From Candidatus Omnitrophota bacterium (GTDB lineage Bacteria > Omnitrophota > Gorgyraeia > Gygaellales > Profunditerraquicolaceae), in contig JAHKAP010000075.1 of assembly GCA_018825985.1 (NCBI GenBank), positions 1 to 42,912 of the forward strand: DNA of 42,912 nucleotides, given 5' to 3'. A program made the translations under genes and the position numbers. A model generated the notes under the pieces. It was not told the DNA's origin. It made no database searches and saw only the letters and a program-made list of their open reading frames with translations. Within the stretch, counting starts at the first letter, position 1. Each line of letters begins with the position of its first letter. Positions 23,648-32,859 of the stretch are shown one piece after another.

Positions 23648-24328
23648 TTAAAATTTATAATTAATACTGCAGGCTAGGGCATAGCTGTCAAAAGCCTCGC
23701 CTTCCAGGTTGATCCAGGTTTTTTTGGTTATTGGGATATCCAGGCCGTAGACTAAACCGATATCCTTGGTCAGGTCCGACATGGCTCTTTTTCTTTTTCC
23801 TTCTACGGTGTGGATATAATCTACCCTTGACCAGCGCAAGCCTAAATAGGAGGTAAGTTTAAAAATATCCCTGGATGTCAGAAAAGAAAACTGCCAATCA
23901 TCCAAAATCGCTTTATGGCGGGTATTGCCTAAATGAGTGCTATGGGGATGGACACTGATATGTTGAAAACCAAGAATTATTTTAACTTTATCCTTATCAT
24001 AAGCCTTTATCCGAAATCCATACCCTCCGGCAAAACCTGAACGATAATCAATTTCGTCACTTCCGGCCGGATGTTGTTTTATATTGCCCGCACCGCCCTT
24101 TAGATCGATAGACAGCCAGTTAAAAATCCCATAAGATATAAGCAGGAAATTCTGAAGGCTACGGAGGCGGCCTTTATCTTCCTCTAAATTCCTCTTAAAT
24201 ATAGAATAATTTTCTAATCCGGCGAAAAATTGTTTTTTTTCGGGCAGATTCGTTCCATAACAAGGCGCGGCATAAGCAGCGGTCCGGAAAATAAAGGCCA
24301 ATATTAAAACCAGTAATGCCTTACGCAT
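23648..24328 (-). CDS. Outer-membrane beta-barrel-like protein
   Basis: The 226-aa protein has a cleavable signal peptide (about 1-20, LVLILAFIFRTAAYA). The mature part is full of alternating hydrophobic/polar strands with aromatic ends (IFKRNL, WLSIDLKGGAG, YGFRIKAYD, SYLGLRWSRVDYIHTV) and ends with a terminal aromatic, INYKF, a C-terminal signature of OM barrels. No specific family was recognised. Its ATG overlaps the upstream glycosylase stop by eight bases. Confidence 0.78.
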   Translation of the reverse strand: MRKALLVLILAFIFRTAAYAAPCYGTNLPEKKQFFAGLENYSIFKRNLEEDKGRLRSLQNFLLISYGIFNWLSIDLKGGAGNIKQHPAGSDEIDYRSGFAGGYGFRIKAYDKDKVKIILGFQHISVHPHSTHLGNTRHKAILDDWQFSFLTSRDIFKLTSYLGLRWSRVDYIHTVEGKRKRAMSDLTKDIGLVYGLDIPITKKTWINLEGEAFDSYALACSINYKF

Positions 24329-24980
24329 TAAACCTCCTTTTATTAAAAACCTTTAAGGGACAAATTCCGCACTTGGGGTTATTTTTCAGACAGAATTCCT
24401 TGCCTAATTTTACTATTAAAGCATGATATTCGTTAAATAATTTTACCTCATTCCTAAGATTTTTACTAAATAAATCTTGCGCAATATGATAATCGCAATC
24501 CCCCAAGATAAAACCGTGCCTGGAGAATACTCTTTTGGTATAAGCATCGATTACAAAAACCGGCTTACTTAATGCATAAAGCAGGATCGAATCCGCGGTC
24601 TCTGGTCCGATACCGTTAACCGATAACAAGCCCTGGCGCAATTTATTGGTTTCTGCCCGGGCCATCTTCCGGATATTCCCTTTGTAATGAACGTTGAGGA
24701 AATCCAGAAAATTTTTTATGCGCTCAGCCTTAATATTATAATAACCCGCGCTGCGGATTAAAAGAGCGATTTCTTCCGGCGGTAATTTATGCAGTCTTTT
24801 GACCGATAATACCTTGCGTTTTTTTAAATTATTTACCGCCTTTTCAACATTAGACCAGTTGGTATTCTGAGTAAGTATCGCACCCACCATCACCTCAAAC
24901 GGGGTCTCTGCCGGCCACCAATGCTGGGGCCCAAAAAATGAGTATAGTCTTTTATAAATAAGTTTTAATTTATCGCGCAT
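24321..24980 (-). CDS. HhH-GPD DNA glycosylase (endonuclease III-like)
   Basis: The 219-aa protein has the helix-hairpin-helix VNGIGPETADSI and the catalytic Asp in VIDAYTKR. The position equivalent to the lyase Lys of Nth is Glu (GPETAD), as in MagIII-type and other monofunctional glycosylases, so a base glycosylase without AP-lyase activity is likely. The C-terminal iron-sulfur motif shows C-x6-C-x2-C but the fourth Cys is replaced (CGICPLKVFN), so cluster binding may be altered. Alkylated bases are a plausible target. It is eight bases after the PilZ fusion gene. Confidence 0.88.
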   Translation of the reverse strand: MRDKLKLIYKRLYSFFGPQHWWPAETPFEVMVGAILTQNTNWSNVEKAVNNLKKRKVLSVKRLHKLPPEEIALLIRSAGYYNIKAERIKNFLDFLNVHYKGNIRKMARAETNKLRQGLLSVNGIGPETADSILLYALSKPVFVIDAYTKRVFSRHGFILGDCDYHIAQDLFSKNLRNEVKLFNEYHALIVKLGKEFCLKNNPKCGICPLKVFNKRRFNA

Positions 24981-24988
24981 TTACAGGA

Positions 24989-26944
24989 TTATTCCAGCTG
25001 CAAAGGATTAAAATTGTTGTAAGCAAAAAGGGTATAGGAGGTTCCGGAAACCGAACCGGTATATTTACCCTTGGGCGTAAACCAGCCGTGCCCGGTATCC
25101 GCTGAATCCAAAGTAGCATAAGGAAGGCAGCCCTCGCCTTGGCCCGAAGGAGACGGGCTGGAAATAATCATATTCCAAAGTTGCTCTAAATATTCATTGG
25201 CCTTGGTTTCATAGACTCTGGACTTAGCCGGCATATTTTTCTTGTTATAATAACCCGCCATGATCTTAAAAGACAAGGTCATCTGGGCGGTCCACTCCGA
25301 AGAGACCACGCCGCCCCTGGACAAATGTTTCTGGGGAGCAAAATCAAAACCCTTGATCTTTACTGTCTGGCCTTCTGGCCGGACGAAAGAAACCTCCACC
25401 CCGCAGGCCTCTTCGGCAAATTCCATTATTTTATCCGGGTTCATCCCCAATTCTTCCAGTTTCTGGGGGCCTATTGCGGCGATGGACCAGGCGTAAGTAT
25501 CGGTAGCAATGGTAGAATCTCCTTTACCCCTCATGATCGGAACATCAGGCCTATCATAGGTATGCAGCATGAGCCAGGATAAAACCTTATCCCTGGCTGT
25601 CAGATAAATTTCCTTTCCGGTTAGTTTATGCAACATATCAAAAAACGAATATGCGTCCAGGTTATGCTCAGCAGCATACCAGGTTACGTTTGGCCCGCCG
25701 CGAATCCCGCCGTCCTTATCTTCTTTTTGTATCTCCATTATGCTGCGGGCAATATCTTCGGCTAACCCTAAATATTTATTATCATTTGTCTTTTTAGTAT
25801 ACTGAGCCATGGCTATGCCCAGCCAGATATTCGGGCCGCAGTGTAGAGTATATTCAGCCGGGCTGCCGTCGTTAGTGTAATAAGCGTTGAAAAATAAACC
25901 GCCGGATTTCTTGATCTTGCGGGTGAAGAAATCTAAAACTTTCCTGGCCCGTTCAAAGTCTGAAAAGATCATATACACCTGCGAGACCAGGGACTGATCG
26001 TAGATAAACGCCCAATTAGAGACATCTGCGTCTCCCTCAAAACTCATTACCAGCCCGGTGCGGGGATTCTGATGTATCAACAGCCATTTATACATTTTAT
26101 CTAAATTCGCCTTCTCTAAAACGATCTTTTTTTCATCTAAGCGCAAAAGCTGCTCAGCCACAGTATTTTCTTTCTGCTGGGAATGAATCAATCCTTCTTG
26201 AAGCTGGGTCTTTTCTTTGGATAACTGATCGACCATAAAATTAAGTTCCCCTATTTTTTGAACGGCCTTTCTCTCCTCGGCTTTTACTTTCTCAGCCAGG
26301 CCCTGACGCTCCTCATCAATTGATTTTATGCGCACCTCCAAAGACTGGATCTTTAATTGGGCGTCTTCTTTATCTTTGCTTATCTGTTTTATCTTATCCT
26401 TAGCTATTGTTGATTCCTGTAAAATACCCACCAACTCGCCGACTAAGGCCTGGTTACCTTTTACTAATTTATAATTAAGATAGGTATTAGCCCCAAGCCC
26501 CAGACCAAAAATAATAACCAAAGCGGCCATGACCGGAAAGACCGATCTTCTCACCCGGCCATAATTAATTATCCCTTTATTGTCATCATTATTTATCTGT
26601 TCATAGTTTAAACCAATAAGGTATTTATTACTGGCTTTGTCAATTTCGCCAATCCAGGATATTTTCGCGGAAGCATTTATCGGCGTAGCCCTCAAAGGAA
26701 TATCTATCTCCAGGCTCAACCTGGCTTGTTTATTCTGGATCAGCTCGATCAGGTTAGAAGGCAGGTTATTTACTTTGAGGCAAAGGCCTCCCTTGCCGAT
26801 ATCATTGGTGAAACCCTGCAGCCATTCAGATAAAGGAGTTTCCGCCTGCAGGCTTAATAACCTGAACTGAACCGGGAATACCGTATCCAAACGCATGTAT
26901 TTCCTGCGTTCGGATTCCGGGGGTAATTTTTTAAATATGCTCAT
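24989..26944 (-). CDS. PilZ domain fused through a membrane helix and coiled coil to a six-hairpin glycosidase-like domain
   Basis: The 651-aa protein is ordered as PilZ domain (about 12-125; RxxxR as RKYMR, NDIGKGGLCL), one membrane helix (about 135-158), a coiled coil (about 165-280) and an alpha-alpha toroid of the six-hairpin glycosidase type (about 285-645; SNWAFIYDQSL, GPNIWLGIAMAQ, AEHNLDAYSFF, TDTYAWSI, DSADTGHGWF). The PilZ part must be cytoplasmic and the toroid outside the inner membrane, so c-di-GMP could control a polysaccharide-binding or -cleaving domain across the membrane. A short SPSPSGQGEG insert near the C-terminus looks repeat-derived. Four-base overlap with the transglutaminase gene. 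Catalytic residues of the toroid were not identified. Confidence 0.85.
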   Translation of the reverse strand: MSIFKKLPPESERRKYMRLDTVFPVQFRLLSLQAETPLSEWLQGFTNDIGKGGLCLKVNNLPSNLIELIQNKQARLSLEIDIPLRATPINASAKISWIGEIDKASNKYLIGLNYEQINNDDNKGIINYGRVRRSVFPVMAALVIIFGLGLGANTYLNYKLVKGNQALVGELVGILQESTIAKDKIKQISKDKEDAQLKIQSLEVRIKSIDEERQGLAEKVKAEERKAVQKIGELNFMVDQLSKEKTQLQEGLIHSQQKENTVAEQLLRLDEKKIVLEKANLDKMYKWLLIHQNPRTGLVMSFEGDADVSNWAFIYDQSLVSQVYMIFSDFERARKVLDFFTRKIKKSGGLFFNAYYTNDGSPAEYTLHCGPNIWLGIAMAQYTKKTNDNKYLGLAEDIARSIMEIQKEDKDGGIRGGPNVTWYAAEHNLDAYSFFDMLHKLTGKEIYLTARDKVLSWLMLHTYDRPDVPIMRGKGDSTIATDTYAWSIAAIGPQKLEELGMNPDKIMEFAEEACGVEVSFVRPEGQTVKIKGFDFAPQKHLSRGGVVSSEWTAQMTLSFKIMAGYYNKKNMPAKSRVYETKANEYLEQLWNMIISSPSPSGQGEGCLPYATLDSADTGHGWFTPKGKYTGSVSGTSYTLFAYNNFNPLQLE

Positions 26945-29310
26945 CTTATTTTTTCCAGGATAACCCTTTGTTTGGCCTTTTTAGCCAGGCGTTCAAAAAA
27001 AACCTTAAAATCCGGGTATTCATTTTCGGAAATTATGCTTTTCTTGGATTCGATAACCTGATGGAAGTATATTTTATTATTTTTATATTTATATTCAACA
27101 TTAAATTTAAACCAGGGGAAATCTTCGCTTATGCCTTCAGGAAGATATTTAACTTTAAACTGAGAAGGCAGCTCTATTTCAATTTTAACTTCCTTGGTAT
27201 CAAGTATTTCAAAGTCAATCGGATATCTACGCGTCTCTTTGGCAGTTAATGATGTATCCAAACTGATTAATTGGGGCATTATCCTTAGCATACCGGCGCT
27301 GGTAAAATATTCCGGGCCCTGGAAATCATAGTTCAAGACAACCGGTTTATTTAAGTCATTTAGGTTATCCACATTGTAACTTGTCAGCGTAGCGCCAATA
27401 GAAACTTCTTGGATCTTTTTCTTTAGTATCTCTGCGATAAGTTCGGGCTGGGTATATAAAAGCCAGTAGCGCTGCCCTTGGTCATAAATACCTTGGCTAT
27501 AAACGCTTTTGGCTGCGGATAAAGTTTCATCCGGTTTTATCTTCAACCTTACCAACTGGCGGTTTAAATTATGCTGCGCAGGATATAGGGGCGTATCGAT
27601 AATATCGTAAGCCTCTTCCTTAGAAACTAAAACCTTACGCCCCTGGTCGCCTGACGGAAGGTCGTCAAGAGAACAGGTCTCGGCGGTAGGGTCAAGAAAA
27701 ATTACCCTATCTTTCAAGACTAAGGCAGCGATGCAATGGTTAAAGAATGCCGCCGGAAAATCTTCTTTGAGATTATAGTAATCTTTGGTCCCGATAAGCA
27801 CCGGCCAGGCTCTAAATCCTGCCTCTTTTAGCATGGTTACCAGCAATATTGCCTGATCTTTACAGTCCCCATATTTATTCCGGAATATATCCTCGGCTTT
27901 ATGCGGCTCATATCCTGCTTGGCCGTATTCCACCGCAACGTAGCGGATCTTCCGGGCGCAAAAATTATAAATAGCCCGGACCTTAGCCTCATCATTATCT
28001 AACCCCATCAGCAGCTCTTTAACCTTATCCTTAATCGCCTGGTCTGCCCTAATCTTATCCTGGGCTAAACCCCACCACCAGTTATAAACTTCATCCCATT
28101 TACTAAAAGTAGAGATTAATATAGTCGGATTTATATCCACCGGGGCAGGCATATTTGATTCGGGGATGATTTGAGGTAAGTTTTTAAACTCCCATTTATA
28201 AATTTTAACCTCGTCTTTTTCTTCTATCCGGGGTTTTAATAAAGCGCCAAAATCATTATATTTATCGTTTATGGAGCAGGTATATATAATTTTATCTTTG
28301 GGCAGGGTAATGGCAAAATTGGCCGAGATAACCGGATCGCTGTTTAAAACCGGATAATTTAAAATAAAATCCTTCCTGTTCATCAACTGGCTGCGGTATA
28401 TTTTTACCTTGTATTCTATGGCCGCGTTTTCGGAGATCTCCGGGAAAGATATAATAAAAACTCGGGCATTGGAGTAAAGGGGAAAATTCAGGTATTTAGA
28501 AACATCCCGGATATGCCGGCTACCTACCTCTGTTACACTCCCGTCGGGTTTAATGGTCCGGGCATAAACCAACTCCACCCTTTCAAAAGTAGTGTCGTAA
28601 TCAATATGGGCTTCGGAAAAATTCTCTTTTCCCCGTTCATTTAATATCTTAACCAGGTAATGAAATGTGGAGGCCTGAGTATCGGAAGGAGTGATTTCTA
28701 CTCTTTCGTCGCAATAAAGGACCAGCGCGCCGGCCTGAGGATATTCTTTGGAAGTTGGCGCATTATCCAGGATATTGCTTATTTCAGAAGAGATATCTTT
28801 AATCCGGGCCGACTTAACTTCTTTCTCAATAATTGCCAGTCGCTCCCGGGCTTTAAGTTTAAGCCCTGTCTGGGTTATCTTAAGGTAAGCTGAAATTGCC
28901 TGGTCAAAAAGATTCAGCTTTTCACAAGTAAGCCCCAGATAATAAAAATATTCGCTGTCCTCTAATTTTATCTGACTTAAAATTTCAAGGGCATCAGTAA
29001 AATCCCCCAGGCGATAATGAGAAATGGCCAGATATTTTTTGGCTTCGGGCAGAGCGGTCTTTTTAAATTCATCTATTGCTTGTGAAAATTCACCGCGCTG
29101 ATAATATAATTTTCCCAGATCATAATGCACCCTGTCTAAATTCCGGCCCCGGGATATTAATTTATTATATTCTGTAATTGAACCATGGTAAAATCTCTCC
29201 GATTTTAAAGCCAGCTCTTTGGCTTTTTCCGGTGAATCTTTTGGACCACAGCCTAAAATTAAGCTCGGGATCAGAAAAATAGCAATAATGAATATTTTAT
29301 TTTTTTTCAT
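26941..29310 (-). CDS. Lipoprotein with TPR, DUF3857 and transglutaminase-like domains
   Basis: The signal peptide ends in LILGC, so Cys21 should be lipidated. Tetratricopeptide-like helices span about 30-165, DUF3857 about 190-370 and a transglutaminase-like protease core about 400-560, with the triad visible as Cys in YGDCKDQA (near 481), His in FNHCI (near 523) and Asp in FLDPTAE. A C-terminal beta domain (DUF2569/DUF3858-like region) completes the usual order. The product is periplasmic or surface-facing; its substrate is unknown. It overlaps the next gene by four bases, so it may work with the PilZ-glycosidase fusion at the envelope. Confidence 0.9.
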   Translation of the reverse strand: MKKNKIFIIAIFLIPSLILGCGPKDSPEKAKELALKSERFYHGSITEYNKLISRGRNLDRVHYDLGKLYYQRGEFSQAIDEFKKTALPEAKKYLAISHYRLGDFTDALEILSQIKLEDSEYFYYLGLTCEKLNLFDQAISAYLKITQTGLKLKARERLAIIEKEVKSARIKDISSEISNILDNAPTSKEYPQAGALVLYCDERVEITPSDTQASTFHYLVKILNERGKENFSEAHIDYDTTFERVELVYARTIKPDGSVTEVGSRHIRDVSKYLNFPLYSNARVFIISFPEISENAAIEYKVKIYRSQLMNRKDFILNYPVLNSDPVISANFAITLPKDKIIYTCSINDKYNDFGALLKPRIEEKDEVKIYKWEFKNLPQIIPESNMPAPVDINPTILISTFSKWDEVYNWWWGLAQDKIRADQAIKDKVKELLMGLDNDEAKVRAIYNFCARKIRYVAVEYGQAGYEPHKAEDIFRNKYGDCKDQAILLVTMLKEAGFRAWPVLIGTKDYYNLKEDFPAAFFNHCIAALVLKDRVIFLDPTAETCSLDDLPSGDQGRKVLVSKEEAYDIIDTPLYPAQHNLNRQLVRLKIKPDETLSAAKSVYSQGIYDQGQRYWLLYTQPELIAEILKKKIQEVSIGATLTSYNVDNLNDLNKPVVLNYDFQGPEYFTSAGMLRIMPQLISLDTSLTAKETRRYPIDFEILDTKEVKIEIELPSQFKVKYLPEGISEDFPWFKFNVEYKYKNNKIYFHQVIESKKSIISENEYPDFKVFFERLAKKAKQRVILEKIR

Positions 29311-31932: not shown

Positions 31933-32859
31933 TTACTTATCCCTCGTCATGTAATTATATGCCTTTAAAGCAATGTCGGCTATGAAATCTTTGGCTATTT
32001 TAGAAGTCTTATTTTTATGCCTGGTAAGGACGCAAACTAAAAGGTCGCCTTGATCGGTAAAAACTATTCCCGCATCATGACAGACGCTTCTTTCCAGGCC
32101 GGTTTTGTGGGCGACAATTACCTGAAGAGGCAATCTTGCCGGAATCCGGTCGCGAATCTTTTGTTTTTTTAGTATATTTAAGCACTCTTGGGAAACATTT
32201 TTATTCAATAATTTACCGTGGTAAATTTTTTCTAAAAGCAACGACAGGTCTGCGGCGTTAATAAAATTTTCAATACCGTTGCGACGGCTCTTAAAATCCA
32301 TCATCCTGCGGGCAATGTTGGTATTATTCAATCCCAGCTTTTTAAATGCAGCATTTAAATAATCATCCCCCAATAAATCAATGAGCATGTTAGCCGCGGT
32401 ATTGTCGCTTTCGGCTATCATCATCTCGACCAAATCTCTTATTTTAACCGGAGTGCCTTCGGGTAACTCTCTTAATTTACCTGAACCCAAAACCTTAAAC
32501 CTGTTTTTAAGGAGTGGCTCATCCTCCAAATTGATCTTGGCTTCAGAATAGGCCAGAAAACAGGCAGCCATGATTGGTATCTTGACTATGCTGGCTGAAG
32601 GGAATAATTTATCTTCATTGACCCTGACCTGCCATCCGTTTTCTAAATCTACGACTACCAGCCCGCATTTGCCGGAAAAATTGGAAGCCGAACCCCTGAT
32701 ATCCGCCGACAAAGCGGCCCAAGCAGCTTTTTGCTTTTTAGTTTTAATCTCTTCCTTGATTACGGCAGAAAAATAAAGGTAAAGCGAAAAGGAGATGAGT
32801 ATTAAGAAAACCCCGGAAAGTATGAATTTAGTCTTTTTTGACCTAAGCGGAAAGGACAT
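31933..32859 (-). CDS. Serine hydrolase of the class A beta-lactamase fold, membrane-anchored
   Basis: The 308-aa protein has an N-terminal membrane helix (about 10-32). The catalytic motifs are SxxK as SIVK near 88, SDN near 150 and KTG near 250. The omega-loop Glu expected of a true class A beta-lactamase is not at the standard place in the text I read, so a low-activity penicillin-binding or peptidoglycan-editing role (beta-lactamase-related family) is as likely as resistance. The protein should face the periplasm. It lies between yggT and the tRNA-binding gene. Confidence 0.88.
   Translation of the reverse strand: MSFPLRSKKTKFILSGVFLILISFSLYLYFSAVIKEEIKTKKQKAAWAALSADIRGSASNFSGKCGLVVVDLENGWQVRVNEDKLFPSASIVKIPIMAACFLAYSEAKINLEDEPLLKNRFKVLGSGKLRELPEGTPVKIRDLVEMMIAESDNTAANMLIDLLGDDYLNAAFKKLGLNNTNIARRMMDFKSRRNGIENFINAADLSLLLEKIYHGKLLNKNVSQECLNILKKQKIRDRIPARLPLQVIVAHKTGLERSVCHDAGIVFTDQGDLLVCVLTRHKNKTSKIAKDFIADIALKAYNYMTRDK

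Follow-up and report, generated by a model that had tools for sequence, protein, structure and literature searches.

Can one polypeptide carry a c-di-GMP signal from the cytoplasm to the processing of an envelope polysaccharide? Known c-di-GMP control of envelope polysaccharide is exerted mostly on the inner-membrane synthase. The question is raised by a gene in a 42,912-nucleotide stretch of DNA (the window) from a Candidatus Omnitrophota bacterium of the family Profunditerraquicolaceae (GenBank assembly GCA_018825985.1, contig JAHKAP010000075.1). Its initial annotation, made by reading the sequence, described a fusion of a PilZ domain, a membrane helix, a coiled coil and a glycosidase-like toroid. 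The open reading frame was found exactly where it had been placed (Table 1), and the domain order was borne out by Pfam, AlphaFold2 and full-length relatives. The PilZ-toroid fusion is present in 113 of the 285 sampled Omnitrophota genomes (match E<=1e-112), and in 48 of the 50 sampled genomes of the window's own family. All 67 proteins in an alignment of full-length relatives across the phylum, the window protein included, retain the order PilZ, stalk and toroid, so a chance or mis-called fusion was ruled out. The best 80 of 216 relatives in a genome scan are all Omnitrophota. A viral origin was rejected, there being no relative in viral contigs; only weak partial matches were seen, to Thermus phages at 26% over 47% and to plasmids from Massilia (E 3e-6, 30% over 157 aa) and Streptomyces. 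The literature searched yielded no paper that describes a PilZ-glycosidase fusion or deals with PilZ or c-di-GMP in Omnitrophota.

Table 1. Features of the fusion gene and its neighbours, in window coordinates.
Feature	Coordinates	Strand	Details
CDS, 651 aa, PilZ - TM - coiled coil - (α/α)6 toroid	24989..26944	(-)	ATG start
PilZ domain, residues 12-128	26561..26911	(-)	Pfam PF07238 E 1.6e-4; β-barrel in AlphaFold2 model
PilZ motif 1, RxxxR (R14..R18)	26891..26905	(-)	Invariant, 67/67 and 74/74 aligned proteins
PilZ motif 2 position, residues 48-53, DIGKGG	26786..26803	(-)	Consensus D/NxSxxG
Single predicted transmembrane helix, residues 134-152	26489..26545	(-)	Hydropathy 2.23; positive-inside
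Predicted periplasmic coiled-coil stalk, residues ~155-290 (~136 residues)	26075..26482	(-)	AlphaFold2 helix; heptad-step indels
Predicted (α/α)6 toroid, residues 276-651	24992..26119	(-)	AlphaFold2; Foldseek to GH76, MmpH, 2-epimerase and endo-β-1,2-glucanase folds
D316, conserved acid, N-terminus of inner helix 2	25997..25999	(-)	47/49 toroids
E426, invariant acid, N-terminus of inner helix 6	25667..25669	(-)	49/49 toroids
D482, conserved acid, N-terminus of inner helix 8	25499..25501	(-)	48/49 toroids
E550, invariant acid, N-terminus of inner helix 10	25295..25297	(-)	49/49 toroids
Upstream partner lipoprotein (LILG-C): TPR, DUF3857, transglutaminase core, DUF3858	26941..29310	(-)	4-nt overlap with PilZ-toroid gene (26941-26944)
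Endonuclease III-like (HhH-GPD), downstream neighbour	24321..24980	(-)	Adjoins PilZ-toroid gene in 65/70 near relatives
226-aa putative outer-membrane β-barrel, downstream	23648..24328	(-)	Signal peptide and C-terminal NYKF by inspection of translation; no Pfam match

The predicted membrane helix is the best hydrophobic window of the protein, and it is the strongest hydrophobic segment in all but one of the 67 aligned proteins (in the exception the strongest window lies elsewhere). In 131 of 140 proteins, Lys and Arg are in excess on the N-terminal, PilZ side of this helix, against four with the excess on the C-terminal side; this argues for an N-in/C-out orientation with PilZ in the cytoplasm and the toroid outside. 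Both the membrane helix and the topology claimed in the initial annotation, for which a protein without such a helix would have been fatal, are thus supported. For the stalk, AlphaFold2 predicts a long helix (residues 119-219/224-290). Indels in this spacer cluster at 7-residue steps, with lengths of 116, 123, 130 and 137 residues, and the stalk length falls in one heptad phase in 50 of 74 relatives. Because the lengths mostly differ by multiples of seven, the stalk is likely to be a coiled coil. By arithmetic from its residue count, it would be ~20 nm long if helical throughout and could span much of the periplasm.

The gene partly overlaps that of a lipoprotein, in which Cys483, His525 and Asp540 lie at the catalytic motifs of a transglutaminase core. 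This partner had been named in the initial annotation as cotranscribed with the fusion. The lipoprotein and the overlap are real, but the pairing is not universal: in 41 of the 67 near relatives the two genes lie side by side. From the overlap and its conservation we infer cotranscription. In other near relatives the transglutaminase is missing and dnaQ-WYL directly precedes the PilZ-toroid gene; six of these loci come from genomes of a single genus. In other families, the transglutaminase lies upstream at a distance of one or two genes, separated from the fusion by a TPR protein and an M48 protease. Downstream, the endonuclease III-like neighbour probably has no functional link with the fusion, and the 226-aa putative barrel is next-but-one to the fusion gene in part of the family. 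That the neighbours (transglutaminase and endonuclease III) form a passive operon, uninformative on function, is a serious possibility, since the endonuclease III, Era and M20 peptidase neighbours resemble housekeeping genes, and some loci have lost the transglutaminase yet kept the fusion. We nevertheless lean against it, as a transglutaminase gene also lies near the fusion on the same strand in a diverse set of loci (17 of the 32 informative ones). Another gene of the window (31933-32859, minus strand) encodes a serine β-lactamase/transpeptidase-like protein that matches PF13354 (E 3.9e-61) and has a hydrophobic segment at its N-terminus.

The diverse set, 38 loci in all, displays two contexts: 21 loci are of the transglutaminase type and 14 of a glucan type, defined by GH161, GH94, GH116, GH158/72-like, secreted or barrel genes near the fusion. 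No locus has both, and the transglutaminase is absent from glucan-type loci. The genes of the latter encode GH161 and GH94 phosphorylases, GH116, GH158/GH72-like TIM-barrel lipoproteins and a secreted choice-anchor-J-like protein, together with sugar ABC permease-like proteins and a large putative outer-membrane barrel (the last two assigned by eye). The GH161 neighbour matches solved GH161 phosphorylases with an E of 3.6e-216. GH161 has been characterised on β-(1→3)-glucooligosaccharides (PMC6484121), and bacterial GH161 genes co-locate with β-glucosidases, ABC transporters and sometimes GH94 (PMC6484121), like the loci here. The GH161, GH94, GH116 and GH158/GH72-like genes and the barrel in the loci of relatives therefore make β-1,3-glucan a candidate substrate. 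The window genome has a GH161 of its own (52% identical), which is located on another contig beside a 938-aa protein of the same barrel family.

In a tree of the toroids, rooted by midpoint only and with many weak branches, a branch with SH-aLRT 90 sets apart the window's transglutaminase-type proteins as the PT_TG clade of 28 rows. The glucan-type proteins are split between a neighbouring group and one that branches earlier, and the toroids of secreted proteins and giant ORFs are placed outside these groups or between them; that the glucan context is ancestral is a suggestion. The substrate could also be something other than β-glucan, in which case the window clade with its transglutaminase partner would act on another envelope component (lipopolysaccharide, peptidoglycan-linked glycan or glycoprotein) and the glucan link would hold in other lineages only. 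This would fit the PT_TG clade, which is without a nearby glucan gene and near whose genes the transglutaminase, a TPR protein, an M48 protease and an M20 peptidase recur. We regard it as possible but on the unlikely side: the pocket residues of the toroid are identical in both clades, and the window genome retains the GH161 and barrel that adjoin the fusion in other lineages. Among the neighbours examined, none was recognised as a GT2 synthase gene, and the PilZ-toroid gene does not adjoin a cellulose synthase gene. Two further observations concern genes of the glucan type. The GH161 gene of the window genome (contig C24, 8479-14612) is oriented oppositely to that of the 938-aa protein, which combines TPR with the putative outer-membrane barrel, ends in YRKKF and has no Pfam barrel match. 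A secreted family of ~210 aa with the motif NHYIPSGWMGD and a weak choice-of-anchor J match recurs beside glucan-type PilZ-toroid genes, at eleven loci.

When modelled alone with AlphaFold2, the toroid (pLDDT 87.9, pTM 0.90) has 12 long helices. As assessed by AlphaFold2 and Foldseek, it consists of six helical hairpins, the arrangement of the (α/α)6 sugar-enzyme fold. The initial annotation had this fold right and its boundaries, 285-645, slightly short. The top 50 Foldseek matches are sugar-active proteins, of which MmpH is the best (E 1e-7, TM 0.67/0.72), and include GH76, glucose/cellobiose 2-epimerases, endo-β-1,2-glucanase and cyclic β-1,2-glucan synthase. With 9-15% identity, an rmsd mostly of 5-8 Å and no GH family defining the toroid, these matches indicate a fold class only. 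No known Pfam or NCBIfam family covers the toroid, and the window protein matches only PilZ and coiled-coil noise. A profile of 49 toroids, drawn from three architectures (membrane-anchored, secreted and giant-protein), matches GH76 with an E of 4e-7 over ~100 residues. GH76 enzymes have consecutive catalytic Asp-Asp residues before the inner-helix W segment, but this pair is replaced by Gly-Pro-Asn in the toroid profile, and membership of GH76 was rejected. So was membership of the N-acylglucosamine 2-epimerases, whose inner helices 8 and 12 carry a catalytic pair of His residues; the toroid is without it, and its helices 8 and 12 start with ATDT and SxxGTAY.

Active sites of the (α/α)6 fold lie at the N-termini of the inner helices. 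In the 49 toroids, these N-termini hold 16 of the 42 most conserved positions (hypergeometric P 1.7e-4), the outer-helix N-termini three. All 49 have Y315, E426, G473, E550 and Y609, and nearly all have D316 and D482, which puts the four acids at 96-100% conservation. E426/E550 with D316/D482 are thus candidates for the conserved acidic pair that was sought, and the toroid is not the pocketless domain that would have pointed to a structural role. Like the acids of a glycosidase pocket, these four conserved residues lie at inner-helix N-termini, which makes a purely structural toroid unlikely. The toroid might still bind glycan without catalysis, the protein tethering or gating a polysaccharide under c-di-GMP as the scaffold of a secretion or uptake system. 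The missing GH family signature would agree with this, and an inner-membrane tether with a long stalk, encoded near putative outer-membrane barrels, would suit a scaffold. We find it improbable, however, because the four acids and their surroundings are near-invariant in the membrane-anchored, secreted and giant versions, which is more typical of catalysis.

At the other end of the protein, relatives align with the window protein across the PilZ domain, which is a β-barrel plus helix in the full-length AlphaFold2 model. Its PF07238 score, 22.4 bits, is just below the curated cut-off of 22.5. The Ser of motif 2, replaced by Gly50 in the window protein, is found in 44 of 67 diverse proteins (Gly in 21) and in 41 of 74 near proteins (Gly in 33, the window protein counted), and residue 48, the first position of the motif, is Asp or Asn in 66 of 67. 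The window genome encodes eight GGDEF domains, at least four of them with an intact GGEEF, and seven HD_5 (HD-GYP-type) domains; no EAL domain was found in it. GGDEF was found in all 285 sampled genomes of the phylum. Since RxxxR is invariant, Asp/Asn48 nearly so and c-di-GMP enzymes are present in the same genome, binding of c-di-GMP by the window copy is plausible. Least probable of all is an active glycan enzyme whose PilZ domain has lost c-di-GMP sensing and acts instead to anchor the protein in the cytoplasm or to bind other proteins: the Ser to Gly change and the sub-threshold Pfam score would suit it, but RxxxR and Asp/Asn48 are retained in essentially all relatives, Ser in most of the phylum set and diguanylate cyclases in the genome. 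The window genome also encodes a stand-alone PilZ protein (168-aa open frame; contig C7, 5935-6291) that shares 30% identity with the fusion's PilZ part.

On balance, we consider it somewhat probable that the fusion is a c-di-GMP-responsive, membrane-tethered periplasmic glycan-processing protein, most likely for β-1,3-glucan. This reading is based on the sequence, the topology signals, the predicted fold, the conserved pocket, the genome's own c-di-GMP enzymes and the glucan-enzyme loci of relatives; c-di-GMP binding, signal transfer across the membrane, catalysis and substrate are its deduced parts. The cytoplasmic PilZ domain would sense c-di-GMP and signal across the membrane helix and along the coiled-coil stalk, ~20 nm long and probably dimeric, to the periplasmic toroid. 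The toroid would then cleave or otherwise process an envelope or extracellular glucan, most likely β-1,3-linked, near the outer membrane. Counting against it are Gly50 in place of the motif-2 Ser together with a PilZ score just under the Pfam threshold, a modelled toroid that matches a fold class and is defined by no GH family, and a gene neighbourhood that, in the window clade, consists of transglutaminase and DNA repair rather than glucan enzymes. If true, c-di-GMP would act on a periplasmic glycan-processing enzyme within one polypeptide. The toroid represents an (α/α)6 domain family of an uncultured phylum, outside existing families, with β-1,3-glucan as candidate substrate. A bolder version, which we think unlikely, is a phylum-wide one-protein switch, in which cytoplasmic c-di-GMP would directly control a periplasmic β-1,3-glucan enzyme ~20 nm away at the tip of the stalk, and enzymes of this family would also supply the polysaccharide-active module of Omnitrophota proteins that are secreted or giant, and possibly predatory.

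The closest layout among known systems that we compared is that of Alg44, the Pseudomonas alginate co-polymerase, which has an N-terminal cytoplasmic PilZ domain, a single transmembrane helix, a C-terminal periplasmic domain and a link to polysaccharide (PMC8461298). PilZ, one membrane helix and a periplasmic domain are common to both proteins. However, the periplasmic part of Alg44 is a membrane-fusion-protein domain that works with the Alg8 synthase, whereas the fusion has a long coiled coil and an (α/α)6 toroid with a conserved acidic pocket. Because of this different periplasmic domain, the fusion is not a member of the Alg44 family, although it would work like Alg44. In the BcsA/BcsZ cellulose synthase, PilZ control and an (α/α)6 periplasmic glycanase belong to one pathway as two separate proteins; here, PilZ and toroid are in one polypeptide, and the toroid is not GH8 by Pfam. 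The GH76 α-1,6-mannanases and MmpH share the (α/α)6 fold, as the GH76 profile match and the best Foldseek match indicate, but identity to the toroid is 10-15% and the rmsd 5-7 Å, and the Asp-Asp of GH76 is Gly-Pro-Asn in the toroid. Effectors with PilZ, a membrane helix and a periplasmic part are already known; no description of the combination with the toroid, or of the toroid family itself, was found in the literature searched.

Besides the fusion, the toroid occurs as secreted proteins of ~440 aa and inside open frames of 1,485 to 16,310 codons in other Omnitrophota. In the toroid-bearing giant ORFs, no PilZ-stalk arrangement was seen. Giant proteins of the phylum include one of 39,678 aa in Velamenicoccus archaeovorus LiM (PMC10066038); the toroid was found in several other giant ORFs. 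Few domains are annotated in Omnitrophota giant ORFs, and for one of them a role in degrading surface polysaccharides has been proposed (PMC10066038). A glycan-enzyme-like toroid in giant ORFs supports this proposal in part, and it provides a recognisable domain for some that are otherwise unannotated. Seven long or giant frames (2,556 to 16,310 codons) have one toroid each, with a second, partial toroid in one of them. GGDEF was also found inside giant frames, one of 42,913 codons (genome G079, contig C2, 444880-445359) and one of 70,450 codons (genome G108, contig C2, 82064-82540). The first stretch has a single frame open over 19.9 kb; in the second, all other frames also have open runs of ~2,600 codons, so that masked N bases probably inflate its length. 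The window genome itself has a 12,589-codon frame with a remote toroid copy carrying insertions (contig C69, 17593-18561; profile E 7.5e-25, 22% identity).
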